Notes: generated by a model from the sequence alone, not told the origin. A stretch of 64,000 nucleotides of DNA from a bacterium (GCA_030430495.1 JAUIKM010000005.1:62001-126000), one strand, 5' to 3'; shown: positions 32,399 through 64,000, numbered from the stretch's first letter. Made by a program: numbers and translations.

Positions 32399-32470
32399 AG
32401 GGCCGTCGCCAAGCGGTAAGGCACCGGGTTTTGGTCCCGGCATTCGTGGGTTCAAATCCTTCCGGCCCTG
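32399..32470 (+). tRNA. tRNA-Gln (anticodon TTG)
   Basis: 72 bases folding as a full cloverleaf. Acceptor stem AGGGCCG (32399-32405) pairs with CGGCCCT (32463-32469); the D-arm contains AAGCGGTAAGG; the anticodon stem CCGGG/CCCGG encloses the loop TTTTGGT with anticodon TTG; the T-arm has GGTTCAAATCC. The CCA end is not encoded. It sits 98 bp before prs and may share its transcript. Confidence 0.97.
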
Positions 32471-47911: not shown

Positions 47912-47947
47912 AAAGCAACGGGGACGTTCCTAAGTCGAAACGTCCCC
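47912..47947 (-). terminator. Terminator of peptidase paralogue 1
   Basis: GGGGACGTT pairs perfectly with AACGTCCCC around a ten-base loop; on the minus strand GTTGCTTTTT follows. It lies about 40 bp past the stop of the gene at 47986. Confidence 0.85.
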
Positions 47948-47985
47948 GATACGCGGCCGGGCGGCGCAGGGCAGGAAATTCCGGA

Positions 47986-50900
47986 TTAACGGGAAATTAC
48001 AATGCGCGCAACGGAGGAATAGTGCGAGCTTTCCAGTAAGACAAAGTATGCGCCGACAGGAAGGCCGGAGGCGTCCCAACGAAAGCTCTGGCGGCCCTCC
48101 ATAAGATAACCTTTAAACAGTACGGCCACCTGTTGCCCGCGCAGGTCCACCACGCGCAGCGTCGCGTCGACCAGCTCGGGATTGTTTAAGCTGATGTTCA
48201 CGTCGTTGACCGCCGGATTGGGCGTCACCTCCAGCTGCGGGCCGACAGGTTGCTGAATCCGGTCGCCCGCATCGGTAATGAGCGGTGTGGCGATCACAAG
48301 ACTGTGCATCGCCTGTTCGTCCGCCGTATACTGCGTCAAGGTCGTGGAGTTGTTGTAGATAACCTCGACATAGTGCGGCGTGAAATAAGTGGATGTGCCG
48401 CCGCTGTTAACGTATTCGACCAGATTGACGTTGTCGGTGAAACCCTCCGCATTGGCCGTGGTCGACGACACCAGTGTCATGGTCGCGTCATAGACATTAA
48501 CGGTCGCGTTGGTCAGTGCTTCGTCATCCTGGTTCTTAACGTTAAATGTCGTGGACCAGGTGCGTTCCAGCGTCGATCCGGCCGGTACGTTTTCCTTGTT
48601 GCTGTCGTAGAGGGAATTTAACATGTAGAGGTAGGCGTTGTTGCTCAGCTCGACGTCGTCGCCGGCGGAGCCGCTTATATCGGCGCCCTCAACGGTAAAG
48701 TTGGACACGCCGTCGGCCAGAATGCCGTCATCGCCGGAATCCGTAATGTGAAAGCCGTCGATCGTCAGGCCGGAGAGCGAGCCGCTTAACACAAGGCCGT
48801 CGCCGCCGCTCTCGTGCACGGCGCCGCCGTCGATGACTCCTGAAGCGCCGGTTAAATGCAGACCGTCGTCCGGCCCCACCAATGCAATCGCCATCCAGTC
48901 CACTGTGCCTTCAACGTCGGCGGTCCAGGTGACGTTATACTCCGGGTCGATGATCGAATTGCCAAAGATGAACGTGCCGCCGGGATCGATGTCGAGCGAG
49001 CCGGATGTGTACAGATGCACGTTTGAGTTGGTGATTTCAATCGTGCCGTTGGTCGAGAGAATGCTGCCGAAGAGATGCGCCTGGTTAAACACCAGCTCAT
49101 CGCCGTCGACGATGTTGGTGTTGATGGTCGTGTGCACCAGAGCGTTAACGATCTGGAGCGTTGTACTGTTGTCGTAGGAGTCGACAACCATCGCCGTAAT
49201 CAGCGTTCCCTGCGTGGCAGTCGTCGGCACCGTGCCGGAGAGGTTGACAGTCTCCGGGTTGATGAGCGTCGAGGTTGTTAAAGTCGTCGGGTTAACTTCC
49301 AGCTGCCAGCCGGTGATGGGCACGACGGTGGCGTTCAGCGTGTGGTTGGGCTCTTCCTCGATCGGAATGGCGTAAAACAGATTCTGGCCGGGCAGGTAGG
49401 CGGTTGTGTTGAAGTATAACACCTCGTCTTCATTATTGACGCTAGCGGTGCGGTCGCTGCCGCGCGGTTTGGCGGAGTTGGTCGACTCAACTAACCGGAA
49501 CTTGCGGCACTTGCCCGGCCCGCCGGCTATGCACTTTTTAACGTCCCGCTGCAGCGAACCGTCAAAACTGCCTATTTTAACGTCGTCGCACATAACGTCC
49601 ACAGAAGTGCCGACAGGTCGGTCATTTCTCTCCTCCGCATAGACGCGTGTGTACCAGGTTGACGATTTCTCGATCTTGGTGCCGCCGCCCGGTTTAGGCA
49701 CCGGCGTTTCATTCACATAACAGGTGCGGCAGATCGTATAGTGAACGTGTCTGCCTGTCGTATTTTTCTTGCGCTTGTACGATGATTTGCTCGTAGCCGT
49801 CGTGCGCGCGCCGTTGTCCAGATCGGTCCAGCCCGGATGGCGATTGCCGACCGCGGTGTCGCGATTGGCGGCCCACATTATTGCTTCCTTGATTGATATT
49901 TTTGAATCGCCGTTAACATCGGCGGAATCATTCTGGCTGCAGGCTTCCAGCCCCTTGTAAAAGTAGGTGCCGCAGCTGTCCCGGCGATACGTCGTCCGGC
50001 CGGAAGAGGATGAATAAACCAGCTCGCCGCTCAGCGTCTCGGATGTGCCGCCGTCTCCGGGCACGGACTTGTCCTGCATGGCGCTTTCCGAGGTTCCCGC
50101 GTAACAGGCTTCGATGCAGATACAGACTTCCTCTGCGCCGTTTTCAATGAGTTTGCACGCCAGTGTTTTCCACTTCATCTGACCGCCCTGCAGGTACGCG
50201 CTGCCGCCTTTGTCGCCGTGACCGCCGTAGAAAAAGTAGAGTTTGTCGCAGTCCTGCAGCGATTCCAGCATGTCGCAGACTTCCTGTTCGGTGGCGCCGT
50301 CCATGCCCGCGCCGCCGGTCAGTGTTTTAATGTTTTCATCGGCAATTTGCGGGCCGCGTGGATTGTTGTTTAAGTAGTTCTTGATGCGGTTGACGTCGTT
50401 GGCGCGCGCTACTTTTTCACCGCTGTTGTCGCCTTCTTCAGGTTTGCCGGTTACAATCAGCGCCCAGGTTGTTGTGACGGGATTGTCCTCGGGTGAATAG
50501 GTGACAACATCGTAGTGTGCGGCCTCATACGTACCGTAGATCTGATCGGCGCTGGTATTGTGGGCGTCCAGCAGGGAGGGGATTTCCAGTCCGTCGATCA
50601 GCGGCCAGGAGTCCGCGTCGAGCACTTCGTACGCGCCCGTCCAGACGTTAAACAGAATAAAACTGGTCGAGTGATTCCACTCGGCTATTGGTTCGTTGTC
50701 GAACCAGAAGAAGTAGGTCTTGGCGTCGAGCGTGCGGTCAATGATTCCCTCGTTGTCCGTCACCTGCGTGCCCACCGGCAGCCAGGTCGTCGGCTCACTG
50801 TAGTTGTGCAGAAAAGCCACCAGCGTGGACGCTATCGGGCTTGGGTTGATGAGATCATTCGTGATGGTCGCGATGGCGTCGCCCGTCGAAATGATCGTCT

Positions 50901-51309
50901 CGTTGACAAACACCGTTGAAAAATCCTGGTTGTTAAACGGATCCAGATCCGCCAGCGTGCTGGTGACAATCACCGTGTGCTGGCCGGTCTGGTTGGGCGT
51001 CCAGGGGCCGGCGGCGGCCACGGCGCTCTGTCCCATCGGCAGCGCGCCGAGCATGATGTTCTCGGGGCCGTAAACGACCATGCCGTTCATGTCTTCCACG
51101 ACAAATTCAACAATGACAAACGGTGCGTCGCCCGGGCCGTTGTTTGTTATCATGGCTTCCAGCGGAACGTCGAAACCGGCGTCCAGCGCTGCCAGATCCG
51201 GTGGGGAGATAACGTCGTCCACGCTGAGGTCGTAGTTCTGAGCTGCGGCGCTCGAGCTCATGAGTATCGCCGCCGCCAGTCCGTAGATAGTGCGTTTGAA
51301 ACAGTTCAT
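47986..51309 (-). CDS. T9SS-exported clan CD cysteine peptidase, array copy 1
   Basis: 1,107 residues. Signal peptide to about 24 (SSSAAAQ). Order: CARDB-like domain (25-135); propeptide-like domain (137-280) with KTYFFWFDN and WPLIDGLEIPS; clan CD peptidase domain (about 282-485) with WALIVTGK, catalytic His364 in FFYGGHG and Cys402 in CIEACYAG, then YSSSSGR; a perfect EF-hand loop DVNGDSKISIKE (464-475) directly after CGTYFYKGLEAC; a Cys-rich module (about 520-605) with CRTCY and MCDD; beta domains; a right-handed beta-helix (about 740-905); and a T9SS tail from VTPNPAVND. It should act as a calcium-influenced surface protease. Cutting specificity is unknown; the fold lies between caspase (C14) and legumain (C13) types. 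Confidence 0.82.
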   Translation of the reverse strand: MNCFKRTIYGLAAAILMSSSAAAQNYDLSVDDVISPPDLAALDAGFDVPLEAMITNNGPGDAPFVIVEFVVEDMNGMVVYGPENIMLGALPMGQSAVAAAGPWTPNQTGQHTVIVTSTLADLDPFNNQDFSTVFVNETIISTGDAIATITNDLINPSPIASTLVAFLHNYSEPTTWLPVGTQVTDNEGIIDRTLDAKTYFFWFDNEPIAEWNHSTSFILFNVWTGAYEVLDADSWPLIDGLEIPSLLDAHNTSADQIYGTYEAAHYDVVTYSPEDNPVTTTWALIVTGKPEEGDNSGEKVARANDVNRIKNYLNNNPRGPQIADENIKTLTGGAGMDGATEQEVCDMLESLQDCDKLYFFYGGHGDKGGSAYLQGGQMKWKTLACKLIENGAEEVCICIEACYAGTSESAMQDKSVPGDGGTSETLSGELVYSSSSGRTTYRRDSCGTYFYKGLEACSQNDSADVNGDSKISIKEAIMWAANRDTAVGNRHPGWTDLDNGARTTATSKSSYKRKKNTTGRHVHYTICRTCYVNETPVPKPGGGTKIEKSSTWYTRVYAEERNDRPVGTSVDVMCDDVKIGSFDGSLQRDVKKCIAGGPGKCRKFRLVESTNSAKPRGSDRTASVNNEDEVLYFNTTAYLPGQNLFYAIPIEEEPNHTLNATVVPITGWQLEVNPTTLTTSTLINPETVNLSGTVPTTATQGTLITAMVVDSYDNSTTLQIVNALVHTTINTNIVDGDELVFNQAHLFGSILSTNGTIEITNSNVHLYTSGSLDIDPGGTFIFGNSIIDPEYNVTWTADVEGTVDWMAIALVGPDDGLHLTGASGVIDGGAVHESGGDGLVLSGSLSGLTIDGFHITDSGDDGILADGVSNFTVEGADISGSAGDDVELSNNAYLYMLNSLYDSNKENVPAGSTLERTWSTTFNVKNQDDEALTNATVNVYDATMTLVSSTTANAEGFTDNVNLVEYVNSGGTSTYFTPHYVEVIYNNSTTLTQYTADEQAMHSLVIATPLITDAGDRIQQPVGPQLEVTPNPAVNDVNISLNNPELVDATLRVVDLRGQQVAVLFKGYLMEGRQSFRWDASGLPVGAYFVLLESSHYSSVARIVISR

Positions 51310-51365
51310 GATGTGATAATCCTTTGATTTGTTAAAAAGAAGTCAGGTCGGCAGTGTGCAGTCCC

Positions 51366-51399
51366 AAAGCGGGTTGCGCCCGTCGATGCAACCCGCTTT
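51366..51399 (-). terminator. Hairpin behind peptidase paralogue 2
   Basis: AAAGCGGGTTGC pairs perfectly (12 bp) with GCAACCCGCTTT around a ten-base loop, about 70 bp past the stop of the gene at 51469. There is no real T-run, so it may also protect the mRNA end. Confidence 0.7.
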
Positions 51400-51468
51400 G
51401 TCGAATGATCAGCTGAATGAGATCTCTCAGTGTTGCGTTCTGTCCGCGCCGGCCCTTCCCGGCGCAAT

Positions 51469-54400
51469 TCAGCGTTGTATTGCTATTCGTGCAACTGAGG
51501 AATAGTGCGAGCTTTGCAGCAGGACAAAGTACGCCCCGGCGGGAAGGCCGGAGGCGTCCCAACGAAAGCGCTGCCGGCCCGTCGTCAGGTAACCATTAAA
51601 TAACGTTGCGACGCGGCGGCCGCGCAGGTCGACTATCTGCACCGTTGCTTCAACAAGCTCGGGGTTGTTTAAGCTGATCGTCACGTCGTGGGCGGCCGGG
51701 TTGGGCGTCACCTCCAGCTGCGGTCCGATCGGGCGCTGCAGCTCGTCGCCCGCGTCCGTTATCAGCGGTGTGGCAATGACGATGCCGTGGACATCCTGCT
51801 CGTCCGCCGTGTACAGCGTCAGCGTCGTGGAGTTGTTGTAAATCACTTCAACGTAGTGCGGCGTAAAATAGGTCGTTGTGCCGCCGATGTTGCCGTATTC
51901 AACCAGGTCGACGTTATCCGTGAATCCGTCGGCGTCGGCCGCCATGGAGGAAACCAGCGTCAGCGTGGCGTCATAGACATTGACGGTTGCATTTGTCAGC
52001 GCCTCTTCGTCCTGGTTTTTGATGCTGAACACCGTTGACCAGGTGCGCCCGAGAATCGAGCCGGCCGGTACGTTCTCCTTGTTGCTGTCATAGTTCGAGT
52101 TTAACATGATCAGGAAGGCGTTGTTGGTCAGCTCAATGTCGTCACCGCCGGAATTGTCGATGTCTGCGCCTTCAACGGTAAAGTTGTACACGCCGTCGGC
52201 GTAAATGCCGTCGTCGCCGCAATCCGTGATGTGAAAACCGTCAATCGTCAGGCCGGAGAGCGTGCCGTTTAACACCAGGCCGTCGCCGCCGCTGTCGTGC
52301 ACGCCGCCGCCGTCGACAATGCCGGATGCGCCGTTCAGGTGCAGGCCGTCGCTCGGCCCCACCAGTGCGCCGCCGTGCCAGTTAACGGACCCTTCGATAT
52401 TGGCCGTGTACGTCACGCCGTATTCGGGATCGACAACGGCATTGCCGTAAACAAGTGCGCCGCCCGGTCCGATGTCTATTGCGCCGGATTGAAACAGGTG
52501 CACGTTGGAGTTGGTGATTAGAACAGTGCCGTTGGTCGAGAGAATACTGCCGAAAAGGTGCGCCTGGTTAAACACCAGCTCAGCGCCGTCGACCATGTTG
52601 CTGTTGATGGTCGTGTGCACCAGTGCGTTAACGATCTGCAGTGTCGTGCTGCCGTCGACGGCGTCGCACATGGTTGCAGTAATAATCGTTCCCTGCGTTG
52701 CCGTTGTCGGCACCGTGCCGGAGAGGTTGACGTATTCGGGGTTGACGAGCAGGGAGGTGGTCAGCGTCGTAGGATTTACCTCCAGATCCCAGCCCGGCAC
52801 CGGCACGACGCTTGCGTCTATCTGGTGGTTGGGCTCTTCGTCAACCGGGATGCTGTAAAACAGGTTCTGTCCGGGCAGGTAGGCCGTGGAGTACATGTGA
52901 ATCACCTCCTCGTCGCCGCCGCTGGACGTCGTGCGGTCGCTGCCGCGCGGTTTGGCCGAGCTGGTGGACTCAACCAGATTAAACTTCCTGCAGCCGCCCG
53001 GCGCTGCGGCGATGCACTTGAGTGTTTTTTTGCCGACTTTGCCGTCAAAGGTGCCGATTTTAACGCCGTCGCACATAATGTCCACCTTGGTGCCGGGATC
53101 GCGCGCAATGCGGGACCAGGCGTAAATGCGCGTGTACCAGGTGGTTGTCTTCTGGATTTCAACGCCGCCGCCTTCCGTTTCCACCGGCGTTTCGTTCAGA
53201 TAACAGGTCGGGCAGATCTTGTACTGGATCTTTTTTCCGGTCGTTTTTTTCGTGCGTTTAAATGTGAACTTGCCGGTCACCGTCGTGCGTGCGCCGTTGT
53301 CCAGGTCGGTCCAGCCGGGGTAGCGTTCGCTGACGAGTGAGTCGCGGTTGGCCGCCCACAGGATCGCTTCTTTAACAGTGATCTTCTGGTCCTTGTTGGC
53401 GTCCGCACTGTCGTTCTGGCTGCACGACTCCAGTCCTTTGTAGAAATATGTGCCGCAGCCGTTCTTGCGATAGGTCGTGCGGCCGGACGAAGACGAATAT
53501 GTTAACTCGCCGTCCAGCGTCTCGGTCGTGCCGCCGTCGCCCGGAATGGACTTGTCCTGCATCGCGCTTTCGGCCGTGCCCGAGTAACAGGCTTCAATGC
53601 AGACGCATACTTCCTTGGCGCCGTTTTCAATCAATTTGCAGGCCAGGTCCTTCCACTTCATGCTGCCGCCTTTTAATATGGCGCTGCCGCCGCGGGAGCC
53701 GTGACCGCCGTAGAAGAAGTAGAGTTTGTCGCAGTCCTTCAGCGATTCGAGCATGTCGCAGACTTCCTGTTTGGTTGCGCCGTTCATGCCGTCGCCGCCG
53801 GTCAGTGTTTTGATATTGCCGTCGGCAATCTGCGGGCCACGTGGGTTGTTGTTTAAGTAGTTTTTGATGCGGTTGACGTCGTTCTTGCGCGCTTTTTTCT
53901 CTCCCGCTTTGTTCTCGCTTCCGGGTTTACCAGTTACAATCAGCGCCCAGGTAGTCGTCACGGGGTTGTCCTGCGCCGTGTAGGTGACCGTCTCGTCGTG
54001 CCCCTTGTCGTAGCTGCCGTAGATCTGGTCGCTGCTTGTATTGTCTTCTTCAACAAATGACGGTATTTCCAGCCCGTTGATCAGCGGCCAGGAGTCGGCG
54101 TCGAGTACTTCGTACGCACCTGTCCAGGCATTAAACAAAATGAAGCTGGTCGAATGATACCAATCCGCTTCTTGTTCGTTGTCGAACCAGAAGAAATAGG
54201 TTTTTGCGTCCAGTGTTCGGTCGATAGTTCCCTCGTGATCGGTCAACTGCGTGCCGACGGGCAGCCAACTGTTGACCATGCCGTTGTTGTGCAGAAAAGC
54301 CACCAGAGTCGCGGCGATCGGACTCGGAGTGATCAGCTCGTTGGTGACGGTCCCGATTGCGATGTCCTTCGCAATAATCGTTTCATATACCATCGCCGTC

Positions 54401-54792
54401 GAGGCGGCCTGGTTGTTTGTCATGTCCAGATCCGTCAGCGTGCTGGTTACGACTACGTTGTGTTCGCCGACGGCATTGGGCGTCCACGGCGTGGCGGACA
54501 CCTCCGCGCTTTCGCCCTGGGCCAATGCGCCGATCAGGACACTTTCCGGGCCGTGAACAATTTCGCCGTCCAGGTTTTCAACGTAAAATTCAATGATGAC
54601 AAAAGCCGCATCGCCCGGGCCGTTGTTGTGCAAAAACGCTGAGAGTTCAACCGGAAAGCCCGCCGGTACTTCGGCAAAGTTCGGCGGTGAAATGATCTCC
54701 TCCACGGCGATGTCGAAGTCCTGAGCGACAAGCGCCGAGTTTAACAGCAGCAGCGCCGCAAGGCATGAAAAAAAGCGTGAGAAATGTTGCAT
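51469..54792 (-). CDS. T9SS-exported clan CD cysteine peptidase, array copy 2
   Basis: 1,107 residues from the ATG at 54792 (MQHFSRFFSCLAAL), behind AAGGAT; ten upstream codons are unsupported. The length and domain order equal copy 1, and this is its closest relative by eye. His364 (FFYGGHGSRGG) and Cys402 (CIEACYSGT) keep the same positions. The EF-hand loop is DANKDQKITVKE. Cysteines of the Cys-rich module are kept (CPTCY, MCDG, KCIAAAPGGCRK). The C-terminal tail RWDASGLPAGAYFVLLQSSHYSSVARI is almost that of copy 1. A 60-nt tract (54154-54213) is identical to copy 3. Role as for copy 1: surface-displayed protease, target unknown. Confidence 0.82.
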   Translation of the reverse strand: MQHFSRFFSCLAALLLLNSALVAQDFDIAVEEIISPPNFAEVPAGFPVELSAFLHNNGPGDAAFVIIEFYVENLDGEIVHGPESVLIGALAQGESAEVSATPWTPNAVGEHNVVVTSTLTDLDMTNNQAASTAMVYETIIAKDIAIGTVTNELITPSPIAATLVAFLHNNGMVNSWLPVGTQLTDHEGTIDRTLDAKTYFFWFDNEQEADWYHSTSFILFNAWTGAYEVLDADSWPLINGLEIPSFVEEDNTSSDQIYGSYDKGHDETVTYTAQDNPVTTTWALIVTGKPGSENKAGEKKARKNDVNRIKNYLNNNPRGPQIADGNIKTLTGGDGMNGATKQEVCDMLESLKDCDKLYFFYGGHGSRGGSAILKGGSMKWKDLACKLIENGAKEVCVCIEACYSGTAESAMQDKSIPGDGGTTETLDGELTYSSSSGRTTYRKNGCGTYFYKGLESCSQNDSADANKDQKITVKEAILWAANRDSLVSERYPGWTDLDNGARTTVTGKFTFKRTKKTTGKKIQYKICPTCYLNETPVETEGGGVEIQKTTTWYTRIYAWSRIARDPGTKVDIMCDGVKIGTFDGKVGKKTLKCIAAAPGGCRKFNLVESTSSAKPRGSDRTTSSGGDEEVIHMYSTAYLPGQNLFYSIPVDEEPNHQIDASVVPVPGWDLEVNPTTLTTSLLVNPEYVNLSGTVPTTATQGTIITATMCDAVDGSTTLQIVNALVHTTINSNMVDGAELVFNQAHLFGSILSTNGTVLITNSNVHLFQSGAIDIGPGGALVYGNAVVDPEYGVTYTANIEGSVNWHGGALVGPSDGLHLNGASGIVDGGGVHDSGGDGLVLNGTLSGLTIDGFHITDCGDDGIYADGVYNFTVEGADIDNSGGDDIELTNNAFLIMLNSNYDSNKENVPAGSILGRTWSTVFSIKNQDEEALTNATVNVYDATLTLVSSMAADADGFTDNVDLVEYGNIGGTTTYFTPHYVEVIYNNSTTLTLYTADEQDVHGIVIATPLITDAGDELQRPIGPQLEVTPNPAAHDVTISLNNPELVEATVQIVDLRGRRVATLFNGYLTTGRQRFRWDASGLPAGAYFVLLQSSHYSSVARIAIQR
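54154..54213. repeat. 60-nt tract identical to 57596-57655
   Basis: These 60 bases inside array copy 2 match array copy 3 base for base. They encode LDAKTYFFWFDNEQEADWYH in the propeptide-like domain. Synonymous positions are identical too, unlike the flanking sequence. Confidence 0.9.
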
Positions 54793-54845
54793 GATGTCGA
54801 AATCCTTCAAGATGTTTAACACTGGTCCGGTCGGCAGTGAAAAGG

Positions 54846-54885
54846 CACGGCGCGGCGCGCGCCGGAATGCGCCCGCGCCGCCGTG
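54846..54885 (-). terminator. Imperfect GC-rich hairpin behind peptidase paralogue 3
   Basis: CACGGCGCGG-type sequence faces CCGCGCCGCCGTG with a bulge. It lies 17 bp past the stop of the gene at 54902; no T-run. Confidence 0.5.
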
Positions 54886-54901
54886 ATTTCGGTTCCGGGC
54901 T

Positions 54902-57900
54902 TTAACGTTGAATGACGATGCGGGCTACGGAAGCAAAGTGATCCGATTCGAGCAGCACAAAGTACGTCCCCGCCGCCGCCGCGCCGCAGTTCCAGCGGAA
55001 CAACTGATCGCCCGCCGGAATCCTGCCTTTAAACACATGCGCCGTTTCGCGGCCGCGCACATCAACCACGCGCAGGCTGCCGTTGAATGCGGCGTCGGAC
55101 CTGAAAGCTATCGCCGCAACCTTGTCGGCCGGATTGGGCGAAATGTTTAATGGCGGTCCGGCGGGACGCTGCGACGGCTGCGGCTCTTTGACATCGGTGA
55201 TCAGCGGCGTCGGGAACAGAATCTCGACGAGGTCCGGGCTGTCCGCCGTGTGCACCGTCAGCGTCGTGGAGTTGTTGTAAATCACCTCGACGTAGTGCGG
55301 AGTGTACCAGGCGGTTGTTCCGCCGATATTGCCGTACTCGACCAGATCGACCGAATTTGTGTAGCCCTCGGCGTCCGCCGTCAGCGCGGCGACCATCGTG
55401 GCCGTGGCGTCGTAAACATTGACCGTCGCATTTGTGAGCGGCTCGCCGTCCTGATTGATGATGTTAAAGGACGTAGTCCAGAGGCGGCCCAGCAGCGAAC
55501 CCGCGGGCACGTTTTCCTTGTTGCTGTCGTACTCGGAGTTTAACATCAGAATAAAAGCGCCGTTGCTCAGCTCGATGTCGTCGTCGCCCGAATTCTCGAT
55601 GTCCGCGCCCTTGATCGTGTAGAAGTAGGTGCCGTCCACAAAAATGCCGTCGTCGGCCGCGCCGGTGACGTGAATGCCGTCGATTGTCATTCCCGCCATA
55701 TTGCCGCTTAACTTCAACCCGTCGCCCTGGCTGTCGTGAATGCCGCCGCCTTTGACAAATCCCGCCGCGCCGTTGAGCTCCAGCCCGTCGTTGGGGCGTA
55801 TCAGCGCGCTTGCCATCCAGTTCAGCGTACCTGCGGCGGCCGCGTCGTAGGTGACGCCCAGATACGGTTCGATAATGCCGTTGCTGAAGTTCAGCGTGCC
55901 GCCGCCCGCGACGTCGACCGCGCCGCTCTGCATCAGGTGGATCGAGCCGTCCGTGATGTCGATGACGCCGGTCGTGGAAAGTATGCTGCCGTACAGATCG
56001 ATTTCGTTAAACACAATGTCGTCGCCGTCGACGATGTTGCTGTTAATCGTCGACTGAATGAGCGCATCCACGAAGTAGTAGGTGCCGCTGCCGTCGTCGG
56101 CGTCGATCGCCTCGCTGTAGATCGACGTGCCCGTGGTGGCCGTCGTCGGCACTGTACCGCTCAGGCTGTAGTACTCGGGATTGATAAGCACCGATGTTGT
56201 CAGCGTCGTCGGGTTAACACCCAGGTTCCAGCCGGGCGCCGGATTGACCGAAATGTCGATCGTGTGGTTCGGCTCTTCGTCGACCGGATTGCTGTAATAC
56301 AGGAACTCGCCCGGCAGATAAGTGGTCGTGTACAGGGTGAAAACCGATTCGTCGGGGTAGAGGGCGGTGGTCCGGTCGCTGCCGCCTTGTTTAATGCCTG
56401 GAACGGTCTTTTTTAAGTGGAATTTTTTCCAGTTGGCCGGCCCGGCGCCGATGCATTTAACTTCGTGGCGTTGCAGTTCGCCGTCGAACTCGCCGATCTT
56501 GGTGCCGTCGCAAATGATGTCCACCGTGGTTCCTTTTTTTCGTGGATTGTTGGACGTTGCATAAACGCGCGTGAACCAGGACGGCGTCTTTTTGGTGGTC
56601 GTTCCGCCGCCCTGTTTGGGCACTTCCTCGTAGGTTAAGTAACAGGTGCGGCAGAGGTAGTAGGTGATGTTGTCGCCGGTGTTTTTTAACCGCATATTGC
56701 CGCTGCGCTTTTTACGCGTCACCGTCACGCGGCTTTCGTTGTCCAGATCCGTCCAGCCGGGTTGTTTAACCGACACGAGGGAGTCGCGATTGGCGGCCCA
56801 CAGGATGGCTTCTTTGACTGATATCTTTTTGTCTTTGTTGACGTCTGCGCTGTCGGACTGGCTGCAGGCTTCCAGACCTTTGTAAAAGGGCGTACCGCAT
56901 TTGTTGATGCGCAGTGTGGTGCGGCCTTTGGAGCTGGAGTAAACCAGTTCGCCGTTGAGCGTTTGTTCCGTGCCGCCCGGTCCGGGGATGCTTTTTTCCT
57001 GCATCGGCTTTTCGGCCGAACCCGAGTAACAGGCCTCGATGCACACGCAGACTTCTTTGGCGCCGTTTTCGATGAGTTTACACGCCAGCTCCTTCCACTT
57101 CATGTCCGAACCCTTAAGAATGGCGCTGCCGCCGCGGGAGCCGTGGCCGCCGTAGAAAAAGTAGAGTTTGTCACAGTCTTTGAGTGCGTCGAGCGAGTCG
57201 CATATTTCCTGTTTGGTCGCGCCTTCCATATCGTCGCCGCCGGTGAGAACTTTGATGTTTTTATCGGCTATCTGCGGTCCGCGCGGGTTGTTGTTTAAGT
57301 AGTTTTTGATGCGGTTGACATCGTTTTTGCGCGCTTTTTTCTCGCCGGCTTTGTTTTTGCTGCCGGGCTCGCCGGTGACGATCATCGCCCAGGTTGTATT
57401 GACGGGCTGGTCGACCGGCGTATAGTTGACGGTCTCGTCGTGGCCTGTTGAATACGTGCCGTAAAACTGGTCCACCGTACTGTTGTCCGCCTCGAAAAAG
57501 GACGGGATTTCGGCTCCGTCGATCAGCGGCCAGGATTCGGCCTCGATGACTTCGTACTGGCCGTTCCAGGCATTAAACAAAATAAAACTTGTCGGATGAT
57601 ACCAATCCGCTTCTTGTTCGTTGTCGAACCAGAAGAAATAGGTTTTTGCGTCCAGCGTTCGGTTTACAGTGCCTTCGTGATCGGTAACCACCGTGCCGAC
57701 GGGCAGCCAGGTGGTCGTCTCACCGTAGTTGTGCAGGAAGGCCACGAGCGTCGCGGCGATCGGGTTGGGCGTAATCAGATCGTCGGTAACTGTTTCGATC
57801 GCCGACTCTTTGTTAATGAGAACTTCATATACTTCCACCGTGGACGTCAACTGATTGTTGCCGGGGTCCAGGTCGCTGAGCGTGCTGGTCACCACGACGG

Positions 57901-58234
57901 TGTGTTCGCCGAGCTGATTCGGGGTCCAGGGCGTGGCGGATATGTCCGCGCTTTCGCCCTCGGCCAGTGCGCCGATCAACAGTGTCTCCGGGCCGTGAAC
58001 GATATTGCCGTCGGAGTCCTCAACGTGAATATCGACAATCACAAACGCGGCGTCGGATGGACCGTTGTTAAGTATCAGCGCTTCAAGCGCCACTTCGTAT
58101 CCCGCCTGAACTTCGGACAGATTTCCAGGGGAGAGAACCTCCTCCACGGAAATGTCGAAATCATGAGCGGCGCTGCGCTGGAAGCCAAGTGCGGCAATGA
58201 TTAAACAAAAGATGCTGGTGCAGAGTGTGCGCAT
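54902..58234 (-). CDS. T9SS-exported clan CD cysteine peptidase, array copy 3
   Basis: 1,110 residues from the ATG at 58234 (MRTLCTSIFCLIIAAL), with CGGAGACA upstream; 13 earlier codons are unsupported. The domain order is as in copies 1 and 2, with His364 (FFYGGHGSRGG) and Cys402 (CIEACYSGS) at identical numbers. The EF-hand loop is DVNKDKKISVKE. In the Cys-rich module one of the conserved cysteines is lost (GPANWKKF where others have GKCRKF or similar). The T9SS tail has NISPNPADKV and ends SVARIVIQR. Divergence from copies 1/2 is moderate overall, but the 60-nt tract at 57596-57655 equals copy 2, pointing to gene conversion. Confidence 0.82.
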   Translation of the reverse strand: MRTLCTSIFCLIIAALGFQRSAAHDFDISVEEVLSPGNLSEVQAGYEVALEALILNNGPSDAAFVIVDIHVEDSDGNIVHGPETLLIGALAEGESADISATPWTPNQLGEHTVVVTSTLSDLDPGNNQLTSTVEVYEVLINKESAIETVTDDLITPNPIAATLVAFLHNYGETTTWLPVGTVVTDHEGTVNRTLDAKTYFFWFDNEQEADWYHPTSFILFNAWNGQYEVIEAESWPLIDGAEIPSFFEADNSTVDQFYGTYSTGHDETVNYTPVDQPVNTTWAMIVTGEPGSKNKAGEKKARKNDVNRIKNYLNNNPRGPQIADKNIKVLTGGDDMEGATKQEICDSLDALKDCDKLYFFYGGHGSRGGSAILKGSDMKWKELACKLIENGAKEVCVCIEACYSGSAEKPMQEKSIPGPGGTEQTLNGELVYSSSKGRTTLRINKCGTPFYKGLEACSQSDSADVNKDKKISVKEAILWAANRDSLVSVKQPGWTDLDNESRVTVTRKKRSGNMRLKNTGDNITYYLCRTCYLTYEEVPKQGGGTTTKKTPSWFTRVYATSNNPRKKGTTVDIICDGTKIGEFDGELQRHEVKCIGAGPANWKKFHLKKTVPGIKQGGSDRTTALYPDESVFTLYTTTYLPGEFLYYSNPVDEEPNHTIDISVNPAPGWNLGVNPTTLTTSVLINPEYYSLSGTVPTTATTGTSIYSEAIDADDGSGTYYFVDALIQSTINSNIVDGDDIVFNEIDLYGSILSTTGVIDITDGSIHLMQSGAVDVAGGGTLNFSNGIIEPYLGVTYDAAAAGTLNWMASALIRPNDGLELNGAAGFVKGGGIHDSQGDGLKLSGNMAGMTIDGIHVTGAADDGIFVDGTYFYTIKGADIENSGDDDIELSNGAFILMLNSEYDSNKENVPAGSLLGRLWTTSFNIINQDGEPLTNATVNVYDATATMVAALTADAEGYTNSVDLVEYGNIGGTTAWYTPHYVEVIYNNSTTLTVHTADSPDLVEILFPTPLITDVKEPQPSQRPAGPPLNISPNPADKVAAIAFRSDAAFNGSLRVVDVRGRETAHVFKGRIPAGDQLFRWNCGAAAAGTYFVLLESDHFASVARIVIQR
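57596..57655. repeat. 60-nt tract identical to 54154-54213
   Basis: Second copy of the tract, inside array copy 3 in the same orientation and at the equivalent protein position. Flanking bases differ at many third positions. Confidence 0.9.
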
Positions 58235-58300
58235 GATTGCTGTCTCCGAATGATGTGAAAAGGTGAGTTGCATTGCGGAGTCGCTCTCCGCACGCAGAAG

Positions 58301-58330
58301 CCGGGAATTCCCCGCGTGGGGAAATCCCGG
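58301..58330 (-). terminator. Hairpin behind peptidase paralogue 4
   Basis: CCGGGAATTCCCC pairs with GGGGAAATCCCGG (one mismatch) around a four-base loop, about 70 bp past the stop of the gene at 58402. No T-run on the minus strand. Confidence 0.65.
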
Positions 58331-58401
58331 TCTGTAGTCGGGCCGGATCGCAGTGAGGAGTGGAGGCGCCGCTGTCGAGCGGCGTGGCGATCAGGCCGAG
58401 A

Positions 58402-61400
58402 TTAACGTTGAAGGACGATGCGGGCGACCGAAGCGGCGCCGTTTATTTCCAGTACCGCAAAGTACGCGCCGACAGGAGTCTCCGCAGCGTCCCAGGCCAG
58501 TTTGTGTTCGCCGGCGCTTAAACGTCCGCTGAAGGGACGCGCAACTTCGCGCCCGCTCAGGTCCAGAATGCGCAGGACCGCGGGGCCGGTGCGTTCCAGC
58601 GTGAAGCCCACCGCCACGTTGTTAAACGCCGGGACAGGCGTGACTGTTAACTCCGGACCGCTCGCCCGCTGCTGCGCCGGTCTGTCGCCGACGTCCGTAA
58701 TCAGCGGCGTCGCGATAACAATTTCGTGTACATTGGGACTGTCGGCCGTGTACAGCGAAATCGTCGTTGAACCGTTGTAGGTTACTCCGATAATGTGCGG
58801 CGTGTAGAAAGCCGTTGAGCCGCCGGCGCGCGCGTATTCGTACAGGTCCAGCGTACTGGTGAATCCTTCGGCGTCGACGGTCAGTGTCGTGACGGGAGCG
58901 GCGTTGGCGTCAAGGACGGTCACCGAGGCATTCGTCAGCGGCTCGCCGTCCTGGTTCTCGATGTAGAACGCCGTCGACCATGAACGCACGAGAATGGAAC
59001 CGGCGTCCAGCACTTCTTTGGACTGATCGTAGAAGCTGTTTTTCATGAATACAAAGGCGGAGTTCTGCAGCACGAGGTCGTCGCCCGTCGAGCCGGTGAT
59101 ATCCGCGCCTTCAACCGTAATGTTAAACGATCCGTCAATTACCATGCCGTCGCCGCCGGAGTTGCTGATCTCGAGTCCGTCGAATGTTAAACCAGACAGG
59201 TTGCCGGTGAGTGTGACGCCGTCGCCCTGGCTGTCGTGGATGCCGCCGCCTTCGATGAAGCCGTCGGCGCCGTTGAGGTACAGACCGTTAACGGGACCGA
59301 TCAGGCCGCTGCCGCGCCATTCCAGCGTACCGGCGATATTGGTCCAGTAGTCGACGCCGCCCGCCGGTTCGATGATCGAATTGCTGAACTTCAGGGTCCC
59401 GTTCGCCGCCACGTCAAAGTCGACGTTGTCCTGCAGGTAGTGGATGCTCGCGTCGGTGATGTCGATCAGGCCGTTGCTCGCGTAAATGCCGCCGTAGAGA
59501 TCGACTTCGTTAAACGACAGGTTGCCGCCGTCGACGATATTGGAGTTGATCGTGGTGTGGATCAGGGCGTCCACCAGTTGATAGGTTAAACTGCCGTCGT
59601 CCTGGTCGGTCATCGTTGCGATAATCGCCGTGCCTACAGTCGCCGTCGTCGGCACAGTGCCCGTCAGAACAACCGTCTCGGGGTTAACCAGCACCGAAGT
59701 TGTCAGGGTCGTCGGGTTGACGCCCAGGTTCCAGCCGGCAACGGGGTCGACGCTCGCGTTGATCGTGTGGTTGGGTTCCTCTTCTATGTGGGTCGCCCAG
59801 TAGAGATTCTGACCGGGGAAATAGGAGTGCGTGGCCTGATATACAACGGCGTCGTCCTGGTTCAGCAACGAGGTGGTGCGGTCTTTGGTCACCGGTTTGA
59901 TCGTGTTGGACGATTTCTTGATTTTAAACTTTTTGCAGCGCGCATTGGCCGTTGCGATGCAGACCTTGGTTTTCTTCGGCAGTTTGCCGTCGAATGTGCC
60001 GATTACGACGCCGTCGCAGCAGAGGTCGACTTTGTCGCCGGTTTTGCGTGGATTGGTTGCGTAGGCGTAGACGCGCGTTATCCAGCTCGTGTCGCGCATT
60101 GTTTCGCCAGTGCTTCCACCGTCGCCGTTGTTGTCGCCCGCGTCTTCCTCGGTCTGCTGGGGCGGCGTCTCGGTGATGTAACAGGTTGAGCAGACGGTGT
60201 ATTTAATCGACTTGCCGGTTTTGCTGCTGCTGCTTTTTTTGCTGCGTTTGCCGGTAACCGTGGTTGTGCTGCCGTCGTCGAGGTTCGTGCAGCCGGGCAT
60301 CTGATTGGCGACGAGCGGGTCGTTGGCGGCGGCCCACAGCATGGCCTCTTTGTTGCTGACCTTGCCGTCGCCGTTGGCGTCGCCCTGCAGATCGGCCGTG
60401 CAGCTTTCGAGCCCTTTGTAGTAGGGCGTGCCGCAGCCGTCGATCCGTTTGGTGACTTTGTCCGAGGAGGAAGAGTAGGTCACTTCGCCGCTGAGTCCTT
60501 CCTGTTCGCCGCCTTCGCCTTCCTGCGTTTTTTCCATCAGCGCCTCGCAGGCCGTACCGGAGTAACAGGCTTCGATGTTGGCACAGACCTCTTTCGCGCC
60601 GTTGTCGATGAGTTTACACGCCAGCTTTTCCCAGCTCATCTTGCCTCCGCGCAGGCAGGCTTCGCCTTTTTTGCTGCCGTGGCCGGCGTAGTAGATGTAG
60701 AGTTTGTCGCAGTCCTCCATAGCGTCCAGGGCGTCGCAGACTTCCTGCTCGGTTGCGCCGCTGAAGTTGGTGCCGGTCAGAACCGTGATGTTGTCGTTGT
60801 CGATCTGCGGTCCGCGCGGGTTGTTGTTAACATAATTGCGGATGCGGTTGACGTCGTTTTCACGTGCGCGTCGTTCGCCGCCGCCATTGATGTTTTTACC
60901 GCTGAATATTAAACACCAGGTGGTATTGGCCGGTTGATCGATGCCGGTGTAGTTGACAATTTCCGAGGGGTGGCTGACGTAAGTGCCGTAGACGCGGTCC
61001 GGACTGGCATTGCCCTGCTGCGTGAACGTCAGAATCTCCGTACCGTTGACGACGGGCCAGCTTTCAGCCTCCGTGACGGTGTACGCGCCGGTCCAGGCGT
61101 TGACGTACACATACGTGGCCGGGTGCATCCAGTCGGCATCCTGTACGTTGTCAAACCAGAAAAAGTAGGTTTTGGCCGTCAGCGTGTTGTTGAAGGTCTC
61201 GGCGTAGTCCGCTACCGAAGCGCCGACGGGCAGCCAGGAATTAACCGCCTGGCTGTTGTATAGAAAAGCCACCAGCTGATCGGCGTACTGGCTCTGCGGA
61301 ATGACGTTGTTTAACACGGTCGTGATTGCCTGGTCCTGCGTGATCAGGACCTCGTAGGTAAACACATCGTTGGTCAACTGATCGTTGAGCGGATTCAGAT

Positions 61401-61764
61401 CCGTCATTGTGCTTGTCACGACAACGCGGAAGTAACCGGTTTGCAGGGGCGTCCATGGCGAATAACTCTGGGCAACAAAGGAATCGCCCGCTCCAAGGTT
61501 GTCGACAAAGATGTTTTCAGGGCCGTGCACAACTTCACCGTCTTCCGTTTCCACGCGGAATTCAACAATGGCAAAAGGCGCATCGGAAGGTCCCAGGTTT
61601 GTTAACACGGCTTCCAGATCAATCGGGTAACCGAGCGGGTGTTCACTCTCGTGTTTGGGTGAGGTGATTTCCTCGACCATAATATCGTAATCCTGCGCCT
61701 CCGCGCTCAGGCAAAAGCTGAACGCCACAGCGGCGCAGACCAGGATTTGACGCAAATTTCTCAT
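58402..61764 (-). CDS. T9SS-exported clan CD cysteine peptidase, array copy 4
   Basis: 1,120 residues; signal peptide ends LSAEAQ. The same architecture but more diverged. Catalytic His362 stands in YYAGHGSKKG and Cys400 in NIEACYSGT, again 38 apart. The EF-hand loop is DANGDGKVSNKE, the nearest to the textbook form. After CSTCY there is an acidic, Gly-rich insert (QQTEEDAGDNNGDGGSTGE) where the other copies have a short linker. The Cys-rich module keeps LCCDG and ARCKKF. The beta-helix and T9SS tail (TPVPAFNNV to SVARIVLQR) are present; the tail has VPAF in place of the usual NPA. Export by T9SS is still likely. Its target may differ from copies 1-3. Confidence 0.8.
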   Translation of the reverse strand: MRNLRQILVCAAVAFSFCLSAEAQDYDIMVEEITSPKHESEHPLGYPIDLEAVLTNLGPSDAPFAIVEFRVETEDGEVVHGPENIFVDNLGAGDSFVAQSYSPWTPLQTGYFRVVVTSTMTDLNPLNDQLTNDVFTYEVLITQDQAITTVLNNVIPQSQYADQLVAFLYNSQAVNSWLPVGASVADYAETFNNTLTAKTYFFWFDNVQDADWMHPATYVYVNAWTGAYTVTEAESWPVVNGTEILTFTQQGNASPDRVYGTYVSHPSEIVNYTGIDQPANTTWCLIFSGKNINGGGERRARENDVNRIRNYVNNNPRGPQIDNDNITVLTGTNFSGATEQEVCDALDAMEDCDKLYIYYAGHGSKKGEACLRGGKMSWEKLACKLIDNGAKEVCANIEACYSGTACEALMEKTQEGEGGEQEGLSGEVTYSSSSDKVTKRIDGCGTPYYKGLESCTADLQGDANGDGKVSNKEAMLWAAANDPLVANQMPGCTNLDDGSTTTVTGKRSKKSSSSKTGKSIKYTVCSTCYITETPPQQTEEDAGDNNGDGGSTGETMRDTSWITRVYAYATNPRKTGDKVDLCCDGVVIGTFDGKLPKKTKVCIATANARCKKFKIKKSSNTIKPVTKDRTTSLLNQDDAVVYQATHSYFPGQNLYWATHIEEEPNHTINASVDPVAGWNLGVNPTTLTTSVLVNPETVVLTGTVPTTATVGTAIIATMTDQDDGSLTYQLVDALIHTTINSNIVDGGNLSFNEVDLYGGIYASNGLIDITDASIHYLQDNVDFDVAANGTLKFSNSIIEPAGGVDYWTNIAGTLEWRGSGLIGPVNGLYLNGADGFIEGGGIHDSQGDGVTLTGNLSGLTFDGLEISNSGGDGMVIDGSFNITVEGADITGSTGDDLVLQNSAFVFMKNSFYDQSKEVLDAGSILVRSWSTAFYIENQDGEPLTNASVTVLDANAAPVTTLTVDAEGFTSTLDLYEYARAGGSTAFYTPHIIGVTYNGSTTISLYTADSPNVHEIVIATPLITDVGDRPAQQRASGPELTVTPVPAFNNVAVGFTLERTGPAVLRILDLSGREVARPFSGRLSAGEHKLAWDAAETPVGAYFAVLEINGAASVARIVLQR

Positions 61765-61877
61765 ACAACAGGTTCCGTGAAATAAGTTTGATGGTATGGT
61801 TCATGGCAGCGTGCTTCCATTGTCGTCGATTTGGCACAGGCAATGGCATGATTTTCTTGTTTGTCACGGAGCCGTAA

Positions 61878-61924
61878 ACGGACCGACTGAAAACAGGGTC
61901 TCCGGCCGGTCCGTTGTACGGGCT
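61878..61924 (-). terminator. Hairpin behind peptidase paralogue 5
   Basis: ACGGACCG pairs perfectly with CGGTCCGT around a 31-base spacer that itself may fold. It begins seven bases after the stop of the gene at 61931. The downstream run is TTTACGG, so termination strength is uncertain. Confidence 0.5.
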
Positions 61925-61930
61925 TCGGTG

Positions 61931-64000
61931 TCAGCGCAATACTCTGATTCGCGTGAGCGCTTCCGTGCTTCCGACCTGCAGAATGCAGTAGTATCCGCCG
62001 CTGCTCCAGCGGCTGGTATTTATCTGCATGGTGTTAATGCCGGCGGGCATGGCGGGCATGCGTCGGCTTTCCACGATGCGGCCATGCGCATCAAAAACCG
62101 TGCATTGTCCTTCGCCCGCCTGCGTAAGTTCAAAGGTCAGGTTGACGCGGTCGCCGGCCGGATTCGGAAATACTTCGACATCGGGCCGGATGCGCGGCGA
62201 CGGGCCGGGCTGCGGCGCATCCGTTACAATCGGCGTCGTCATCACAATCGTTTCGGTGTTGAGGTCGTCGGCCGTGTACGCCTGCACGTAGTTTGTTGTG
62301 TTCCAGGTGATCTGCAGGCTGTGCGGCGTGAAGTTGTAGAAGGTGTTGCCGATGCGGCCGTATTCCGTTAACTCCACATTGGGCGTATTGCCCTCGGCAT
62401 CCACCAGCAGGTTTGTCACCACGGTTCCATAGGCGTCCAGAACGGCAACATTGGCATTCGTCAAAGCCTCGCCGTCCTGGTTAAGCACTATGAATGAGGT
62501 GGTCCAGTTTCGCAGCAGAATGGAATTGACATCGGCCGTCTCCTTGGCGGCGTCGTAGTAGGAGTCGAGCATGCTGACAATCGCACCGTTAATTAACACC
62601 ACGTCATTGCCGGTGGAATTGGTAATATCGGCGCCGCCTACCACGCAGTTGAAGGCGCCGTTTGCCACCAGTCCGTTGTTGGTTGCATGACTGATCTCCA
62701 CGCCGTCGAAAACAAAATTGGCAAAGTCCCCGGTCAGAGTTAAACCGTCCCCATGACTGTCGTGAATGCCGCCTCCGTTGATATGTCCCGACGGACTGTC
62801 GAGCAGCAGCCCGCCGTCGGGCCGCACGATCATGGATGCGTCCCATTCCAGCGCGCCTTCGACGTTGAGCGTCCACGTGGTGCCGAGTTCACAACTGATA
62901 CTCGAGTTAAACATGCGCAGCGTGCCGGTGGAGTGGATCGTGCAGTTTGCCGACGTCCGCATGTGAACCGTCGATTCCGTCATGTTGACAAGTCCGGTGT
63001 AAACATTGATGGCGCCGTAGAGGTTAAGTTCGTTGTACGAGGCGATTTCACCGTCGTCCAGGTCGTTGTTCTGTGTGCGCCGCACGAGCGCGTTAACATA
63101 AACTTCGGAGGTGTCGTTCTCCGTGGTGTCGCGTATCTCGGCAAAGATGCGCGTGCCGTAGACCGCCGTGGTCGGCACGTCTCCGGTGACGAACAATTCG
63201 ACCGGGTTAATATATCCCGCGGCGGCCATGGTCGTGTGGGAGAGAGCCAGTCCCCAGCCCGAGACCTGATTGATGGTGCTCCGGATAGTATTGCCGGTGG
63301 CGGCTTCAATCGGAAAAGCGTGAAAAATGTGTTCGCCCGGATCGTAGGTGCGCGTGCGGTATTCGGCGTGTGTAAAGTTGTCTTCGAACTGCACCTGAAC
63401 TCGGTCGGACGCTCCCTTGGGCGCGACTTTTTTGGCCGGTTTAAAGCTCGGTTTGTGGCGGCAGGGTTTGTCCAGCGTGGCAAAGCAGATTTTTTTGTTG
63501 CCGGTTACTTCGGTCGGAGGGAGTGTGCCGACCTTTTCTTTGCCGCAGTAGATGTCAATTGTTTTTTTTGTGGTTCGACTCTTGCCTTTGGAGTTTGCGT
63601 ACAGGCGCGCTTCCCAGACGCGACTCTTTTTAACTTTTGGTTTTTTGCCTCCACCTTGTGGGATGTATTTCTGCCTGATAAAACAGGTGTTGCAGTAGAA
63701 GAAGTCCACGCCTTCCTCGGATTCCCGGCTGTTTCCCGGTTTTGCCTTGCGGACAAAAGTGAATACTTCATCATCGTCGATCGTGCCGTACTGCGGATTG
63801 CGTCCGCCGACGTCCGGGTCGATTTCGGACGCCCAGATAATCGCTTCGCGCACGGATATTTTGTTGTCTTCATCGCGATCCGCGTTTGGATCCTGCGAAC
63901 AGGTTTCAAGCCCCTTGTAAAACTGCGTGCCGCAAGGGTCCTTGCGTTTGGTCTTTTTCCCGGCAACCGAAGAAACGACATATTCGCCTTTTAACTGCTC
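61931..64000 (-). CDS. T9SS-exported clan CD peptidase paralogue, array copy 5 (cut by window end)
   Basis: Only the C-terminal 689 residues are visible; the frame is open through base 64000. Reading from the edge, EQLKGEYVVSSVAGKK aligns with SGELVYSSSSGR of the other copies, then CGTQFYKGLETCSQ and the EF-hand loop DRDEDNKISVRE follow, so the catalytic His and Cys must lie beyond the window. The Cys-rich module (CNTCF, IYCGKEK, ICFATLDKPCRH), the beta-helix (GGGIHDSHGDGLTLTG) and a T9SS tail (VFPNPAGDR) are complete. It is the most diverged copy. Whether the active site is intact cannot be judged. An ATG-less internal GTG at 63853 is not the start. Confidence 0.78.
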   Translation of the reverse strand, partial: EQLKGEYVVSSVAGKKTKRKDPCGTQFYKGLETCSQDPNADRDEDNKISVREAIIWASEIDPDVGGRNPQYGTIDDDEVFTFVRKAKPGNSRESEEGVDFFYCNTCFIRQKYIPQGGGKKPKVKKSRVWEARLYANSKGKSRTTKKTIDIYCGKEKVGTLPPTEVTGNKKICFATLDKPCRHKPSFKPAKKVAPKGASDRVQVQFEDNFTHAEYRTRTYDPGEHIFHAFPIEAATGNTIRSTINQVSGWGLALSHTTMAAAGYINPVELFVTGDVPTTAVYGTRIFAEIRDTTENDTSEVYVNALVRRTQNNDLDDGEIASYNELNLYGAINVYTGLVNMTESTVHMRTSANCTIHSTGTLRMFNSSISCELGTTWTLNVEGALEWDASMIVRPDGGLLLDSPSGHINGGGIHDSHGDGLTLTGDFANFVFDGVEISHATNNGLVANGAFNCVVGGADITNSTGNDVVLINGAIVSMLDSYYDAAKETADVNSILLRNWTTSFIVLNQDGEALTNANVAVLDAYGTVVTNLLVDAEGNTPNVELTEYGRIGNTFYNFTPHSLQITWNTTNYVQAYTADDLNTETIVMTTPIVTDAPQPGPSPRIRPDVEVFPNPAGDRVNLTFELTQAGEGQCTVFDAHGRIVESRRMPAMPAGINTMQINTSRWSSGGYYCILQVGSTEALTRIRVLR

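Follow-up and report, generated by a model that had tools for sequence, protein, structure and literature searches.

What are the proteins encoded by the tandem gene array at one end of a 64,000-nucleotide stretch of bacterial DNA (GCA_030430495.1 JAUIKM010000005.1:62001-126000; hereafter the window, meaning this whole stretch), and what does the bacterium do with so many of them? An earlier note, made from the sequence of the window alone, described at least five consecutive minus-strand paralogues that appeared to be proteases exported by the type IX secretion system (T9SS). Among T9SS clan CD peptidases, the gingipains and PorU, of family C25, are the best known. Are the array proteins further members of this group? 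Or are they a different exported branch, with roles in nutrition, surface-protein maturation or antigenic variation? On balance, the array probably encodes seven secreted, surface-displayed or released clan CD cysteine endopeptidases, which would be zymogenic and share one specificity while differing in their targeting parts.

The array is longer than was first counted. The listed open reading frames (ORFs) and the contig beyond the window give seven intact tandem paralogues of 1,107–1,137 amino acids (aa), all on the minus strand. From position 47986 to its end the window contains four complete copies and one truncated copy. Copy 1 is at 47986..51309 (1107 aa; Por_Secre_tail 4.4e-11, Beta_helix 4.1e-8), copy 2 at 51469..54822 (1117 aa as listed, with a GTG start; tail 3.3e-10, Beta_helix 1.8e-7), copy 3 at 54902..58273 (1123 aa) and copy 4 at 58402..61764 (1120 aa; Beta_helix 2e-7). 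In copy 2, an internal ATG is likelier to be the start than the listed GTG. The C-terminal part of copy 5 is at 61931..64000. The earlier note had proposed a search for the other end of the array past 64000, and this located the rest of copy 5, which continues to L003:6345 (L003:2932-6345), and complete ORFs for copies 6 (L003:6391-9786) and 7 (L003:9852-13217). The array terminus is 8.2 kb past the window end and the array as a whole spans approximately G000:C71:109986-134216. Residue numbering throughout is that of copy 3.

The order of parts in each copy, from N- to C-terminus, is a signal-peptide-like start (identified by eye), a CARDB domain, a pro-domain, the clan CD core, an EF-hand-type loop, a Cys-rich module, an immunoglobulin (Ig)-like part, a right-handed beta-helix, a CnaB-like part and a T9SS tail. 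The seven copies can be aligned along their whole length (1,172 columns), with 41–64% identity to copy 3, and by this alignment their similarity is far above chance. In a search of the whole genome with copy 3, the only full-length matches were these seven. A remote paralogue of 823 aa in the same genome (L012) has the pro-domain and peptidase region in common with them and has its own T9SS-like tail. The architecture that had been read as shared between the paralogues is borne out by the end-to-end alignment and by the tail and beta-helix matches, with support that is uneven across the copies.

The catalytic core was investigated in copy 3 (aa 290-505; 56759..57406, minus strand). An AlphaFold model of aa 140-530 (predicted local distance difference test score, pLDDT, 75; predicted template modelling score, pTM, 0.63) matched caspase-3, legumains, a metacaspase and GPI transamidase with a Foldseek probability of 1.00, in agreement with the clan CD fold that had been proposed. 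The TM-scores are modest (TMt 0.24–0.54), for a query that also carried the pro-domain and loose ends. The predicted catalytic residues, His377 (codon 57143..57145, minus strand) and Cys415 (57029..57031, minus strand), each terminate a core strand in the model. Neither varies in any of the aligned copies and relatives, and they correspond to the His364 and Cys402 singled out earlier in copy 1.

Profile searches place these enzymes between recognized families. The best Pfam match to the peptidase region of the array is C13 (PF01650), which falls below the cut-off for whole proteins and is just above it for the copy 3 domain alone (24.2 bits versus 22.8). No array copy matched C14 (PF00656) over the cut-off; relatives outside the array with the same module did so, and 14 of 16 modules have weak matches to NF047832. 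A profile of 16 sequences, searched against the PDB, had its best matches to plant asparaginyl endopeptidases (4e-5), ligase variants among them. In the genome-wide search with C25 (PF01364) the array was unmatched and only two other genes, on C73 and C38, were found. Membership of the gingipain family was therefore rejected, because the PF01364 matches fall on these other genes, and the view that the array represents a branch different from C25 stands. From profiles and model together, the array peptidases are assigned to clan CD, between C13 and C14 and firmly to neither. The enzyme class is well supported; proteolytic activity is what this class would predict.

The array was compared with known systems. 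Like C13 legumain, the array proteins have a GHG...EACxSG active-site stretch and a matching core fold. Unlike legumain, they are T9SS cargo with an EF-hand-type loop and a beta-helix, the S1 arginine is in a different register (by eye), and they are only 14–18% identical to legumain structures. Their pro-domain is N-terminal, whereas that of legumain is C-terminal; no C-terminal pro-domain of the C13 LSAM type was found, and the core is followed by the EF-hand-type loop and beta-rich modules. With C14 (caspases, metacaspases and the NCBIfam EACC1-associated caspases) the array shares the fold, and relatives carrying the module exceed the PF00656 cut-off, but the array copies themselves do not and have an extracellular multi-domain export layout. 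With the gingipains and PorU they share clan CD, T9SS export, an N-terminal pro-domain and the form of multi-domain surface enzymes, but not the C25 profile. The KLIKK protease loci of Tannerella forsythia are also clusters of secreted protease genes with a common C-terminal domain (PMC4404884). There the genes number six, lie in two clusters and share an almost identical tail, whereas the array has seven paralogues, all from a single clan CD family, and their tails diverge. In the open-access literature, we found no paper on T9SS with metacaspase or peptidase C13, none on a bacterial legumain, and, in a broader search, work on gingipains and KLIKK proteases. No paper describing this layout was found there, in line with the earlier note, and such an absence is weak evidence of novelty.

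Export by T9SS is indicated by the tails. In copy 3 a type A sorting tail (aa 1036-1123; 54905..55168, minus strand) exceeds the cut-off of TIGR04183 (1.2e-7), and matches to PF18962 or TIGR04183 over their curated cut-offs were obtained for six of the seven copies (1, 2, 3, 5, 6 and 7), which confirms the tails that had been claimed. The tail of copy 4 is below threshold and is recognized by its alignment with the others. The host genome encodes the SprA translocon (6.6e-223) and at least 150 T9SS tails; therefore the export route exists in this organism.

The domain directly before the peptidase (aa 151-275 in copy 3; 57449..57823, minus strand) has an alpha+beta fold with pLDDT mostly 84–95. 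It matched no Pfam family and is conserved, adjoining the peptidase, in all relatives. Three related proteins (L051, L052 and L053) contain the module of pro-domain plus core twice and a fourth (L050) contains it three times. Since the two parts are duplicated together, the module is read as one functional unit. The protein with three modules (L050:8108-12463) is of 1451 aa, in a single reading frame, and is T9SS-tailed.

The module is sparsely distributed. Within the order, 8 of 123 genomes have it, and outside the order it was found in only three genomes of a 395-genome phylum sample (Bacteroidota); it is also present in metagenome-assembled genomes (MAGs) of Saprospirales and Armatimonadota. 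In the latter (L054:6700-7797 and L055; Chthonomonas and Fimbriimonadaceae) it lies beside a bacterial Ig-like domain, and a search of the Armatimonadota protein found no T9SS tail. One module homologue (L077; G002:C241:10732-11532) has one in-frame TAA and may be a pseudogene or reflect an error of assembly. Among the genomes searched, the full architecture is restricted to the window genome and a family-mate, which has one copy with 42% identity and two with approximately 24%; expansion to seven copies is seen in the window genome only. The surroundings of the closest of these three are unrelated to those of the array. Conservation of the array by synteny was rejected, as the single copy of the relative (L041/L042, L046) is in different surroundings.

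How have the seven copies evolved? Two supported groups are present in the tree, copies 1–4 and copies 5–7, which is consistent with tandem duplication. Synonymous distances are approximately 1 or saturated and the nonsynonymous distance (dN) is below the synonymous distance (dS) in nearly all comparisons (Nei-Gojobori, a rough guide only). The longest tract of identical DNA shared by a pair of copies measures 60 nt. By these measures the copies are old, maintained and under purifying selection, and they are neither recent nor exchanging. Compared pairwise, the copies are most alike in the peptidase (56–83% identity) and least alike in the Cys-rich module (23–60%) and the tail (24–77%). The age of the copies, their purifying selection and the conservation of the peptidase argue against both antigenic variation and diversified catalysis. 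The diversification toward different targets that had been suggested earlier is therefore disfavoured for the catalytic domain and possible only in accessory parts such as the Cys-rich module. A well-conserved cutting part joined to divergent attached parts suggests, on this ranking, a common cutting activity carried by differing surface parts. Trees made domain by domain give L030, a homologue in the family-mate, no firm placement relative to the two groups, and recombination is therefore not claimed.

From these features a mechanism can be proposed. The signal peptide would direct export by the Sec pathway and the C-terminal tail would then take the protein across the outer membrane by T9SS. 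The conserved domain before the peptidase may keep the enzyme latent. The EF-hand-type loop after the core, with the pattern D-x-[ND]-x-[DN]-x-K-[IV]-x-x-x-E in all array copies (D477VNKDKKISVKE488 in copy 3; 56810..56845, minus strand), may bind calcium and so order the active site outside the cell; its Glu488 and the subsequent Trp492 are unchanged across 16 module sequences. Latency is common among clan CD enzymes, and several of them require Ca2+ (PMC4357240), although PmC11 is Ca2+-independent (PMC4850288). For the array enzymes, calcium dependence is a prediction. The His377/Cys415 dyad would cleave proteins with the same specificity in all copies, and the Cys-rich module, beta-helix and CnaB-like parts, the most divergent parts among them, would hold or place each enzyme.

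The specificity can be addressed through three residues, Arg315, Glu413 and Arg455, which are invariant in eight proteins, the seven copies and L030. In other relatives, positions 315 and 413 are mostly Phe and Asp, and the third position is poorly aligned. Arg455 presumably aligns with an S1 arginine of caspases. In legumain, helix 1 and the loop that follows the Cys strand supply the residues of the S1 pocket (PMC4357240). Two remote full-length homologues in the family-mate (L031:1351-4794 and L032:1363-4803) have Val/Thr/Val at the three positions, which suggests, from sequence, a different specificity. The joint change is consistent with a single pocket, and the presence of Arg/Glu/Arg in all copies suggests one shared specificity, perhaps for Asp/Asn. 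Because these are candidate S1 residues, we tentatively favour an acidic or amide residue at P1, with less than an even chance of being right, over Arg/Lys, to which we give a somewhat smaller one.

The strongest rival is that these are general nutritional proteases with a basic P1 (Arg/Lys), like gingipains, clostripain and metacaspases, and that seven copies simply provide dosage. In PmC11 the main S1 residue is two before the Cys, the S1 Asp of both PmC11 and clostripain is this acidic residue, and Asp occupies the site in most other family members (PMC4850288 for the enzymes). A conserved peptidase also fits dosage. Two invariant arginines near the candidate pocket argue against a basic P1, and the strong divergence of the accessory domains would not be expected from dosage alone. 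We regard this rival as unlikely. Several further points weigh against the reading preferred here, that of latent enzymes with one specificity. Glu413 resembles the acidic S1 residue tied to Arg/Lys preference in PmC11 (PMC4850288). The Asp/Asn assignment is based on alignment and partly on motif positions, and Arg/Glu/Arg versus Val/Thr/Val is effectively one evolutionary contrast with two related remote proteins. Latency is proposed from position and analogy, for a domain outside any Pfam family, and the model of a full-length copy is poor (pLDDT 61, pTM 0.37).

Could the array enzymes instead be transpeptidases, ligases or sortase-like enzymes that join or mature surface proteins, like plant asparaginyl ligases and GPI transamidase, both of C13? 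The PDB profile and Foldseek matches described above include these, and PorU, itself of clan CD, is described as a T9SS sortase (PMC4560394). A housekeeping sortase would not be expected to have a cargo-type tail or to occur in seven copies, and the C25 matches elsewhere in this genome may be PorU, which makes the ligase reading improbable. That the proteins are non-catalytic adhesins with a relict protease fold is very improbable: their accessory part is large and beta-rich, but all seven copies and their relatives retain His377, Cys415 and the EF-hand-type loop, and of all the domains the peptidase is the best conserved. A reservoir for antigenic or phase variation, as tandem paralogues of a surface-type protein might suggest, is scarcely credible and was rejected on the divergence and short shared tracts given above, every copy being full length with its own start and hairpin and no silent cassettes being seen.

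The accessory parts were placed in copy 3 (all minus strand). The CARDB domain (aa 36-150; 57824..58168) matches CARDB structure 3idu (Foldseek TMt 0.81) and has weak Pfam CARDB/DUF11 matches; in copy 5 the CARDB match is below threshold. Searches with the full-length model gave mostly low-TM multi-Ig matches, CARDB alone being informative. The Cys-rich module (aa 515-645; 56339..56731) has Cys541, 544, 588 and 607 invariant in the array. The beta-helix (aa 736-925; 55499..56068) shows a strand ladder in the model, with pLDDT mostly 80–92. Its Pfam match is below the cut-off in copies 3 (5e-5), 6 and 7 and over it in copies 1, 2 and 4; copy 5 had no Pfam Beta_helix match. A CnaB/carboxypeptidase-regulatory-like beta domain (aa 926-1030; 55184..55498) is tentative, from weak bMG3 and CarboxypepD_reg matches.

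A GC-rich stem-loop is present 3' of all seven array genes. Behind copy 1, at the array end, it is an intrinsic terminator with a 12-bp stem and a T tract (47919..47948), and those read in the intergenic sequences behind copies 2 to 5 are at 51366..51399, 54846..54885, 58301..58330 and 61877..61915, all on the minus strand. Each gene therefore does have its own hairpin, as the earlier note stated, and nothing about it is particular to the array. Similar hairpins are behind many other genes of the region (mean stem 12 versus 9 pairs), and a special role was rejected.

One flank of the array is a gene on the opposite strand for a T9SS-tailed protein (45069-47735). It has two putative Ig (He_PIG) stretches, is convergent with the array end and is a possible candidate partner or substrate. 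At the other flank (L003:13804) is a gene whose product has two CxxCH haem motifs, noted by eye. The source genome is 5.6 Mb in 80 contigs. It belongs to a relative of Kapaibacterium. The MAG Candidatus Kapaibacterium IP29b_bin.46 (Bacteroidota) falls in its family, since L046 of this MAG and L030 of the family-mate G001 are one and the same protein. Rfam and tRNA scans returned only a tRNA-Gln at 32399, and plasmid carriage was rejected, no match being found in plasmid records. Distinct from the array, the genome has two adjacent C14 caspase-domain genes (L085 and L087; G000:C13:9129-11035) and a C14 caspase domain in a long protein encoded near a tyrosine-recombinase-like ORF (L086; G000:C73:4083-4604).

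The array represents an exported branch separate from the gingipains and PorU and intermediate between legumains and caspases. This branch has a pro-domain of its own, is amplified in tandem and bears on the spread of the caspase fold in bacteria. As natural variants that share a well-conserved catalytic domain, the seven copies are test material for the roles of accessory domains. If the Asp/Asn specificity is true, this would be a useful extracellular enzyme. A bolder and rather unlikely possibility is that the array serves as a set of surface tools: a single calcium-triggered latent caspase/legumain-type activity with an acidic or amide P1, from a new family between C13 and C14, would have been duplicated and would be carried on seven different targeting parts. 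If so, it would be a T9SS counterpart of the caspase/legumain specificity of eukaryotes.

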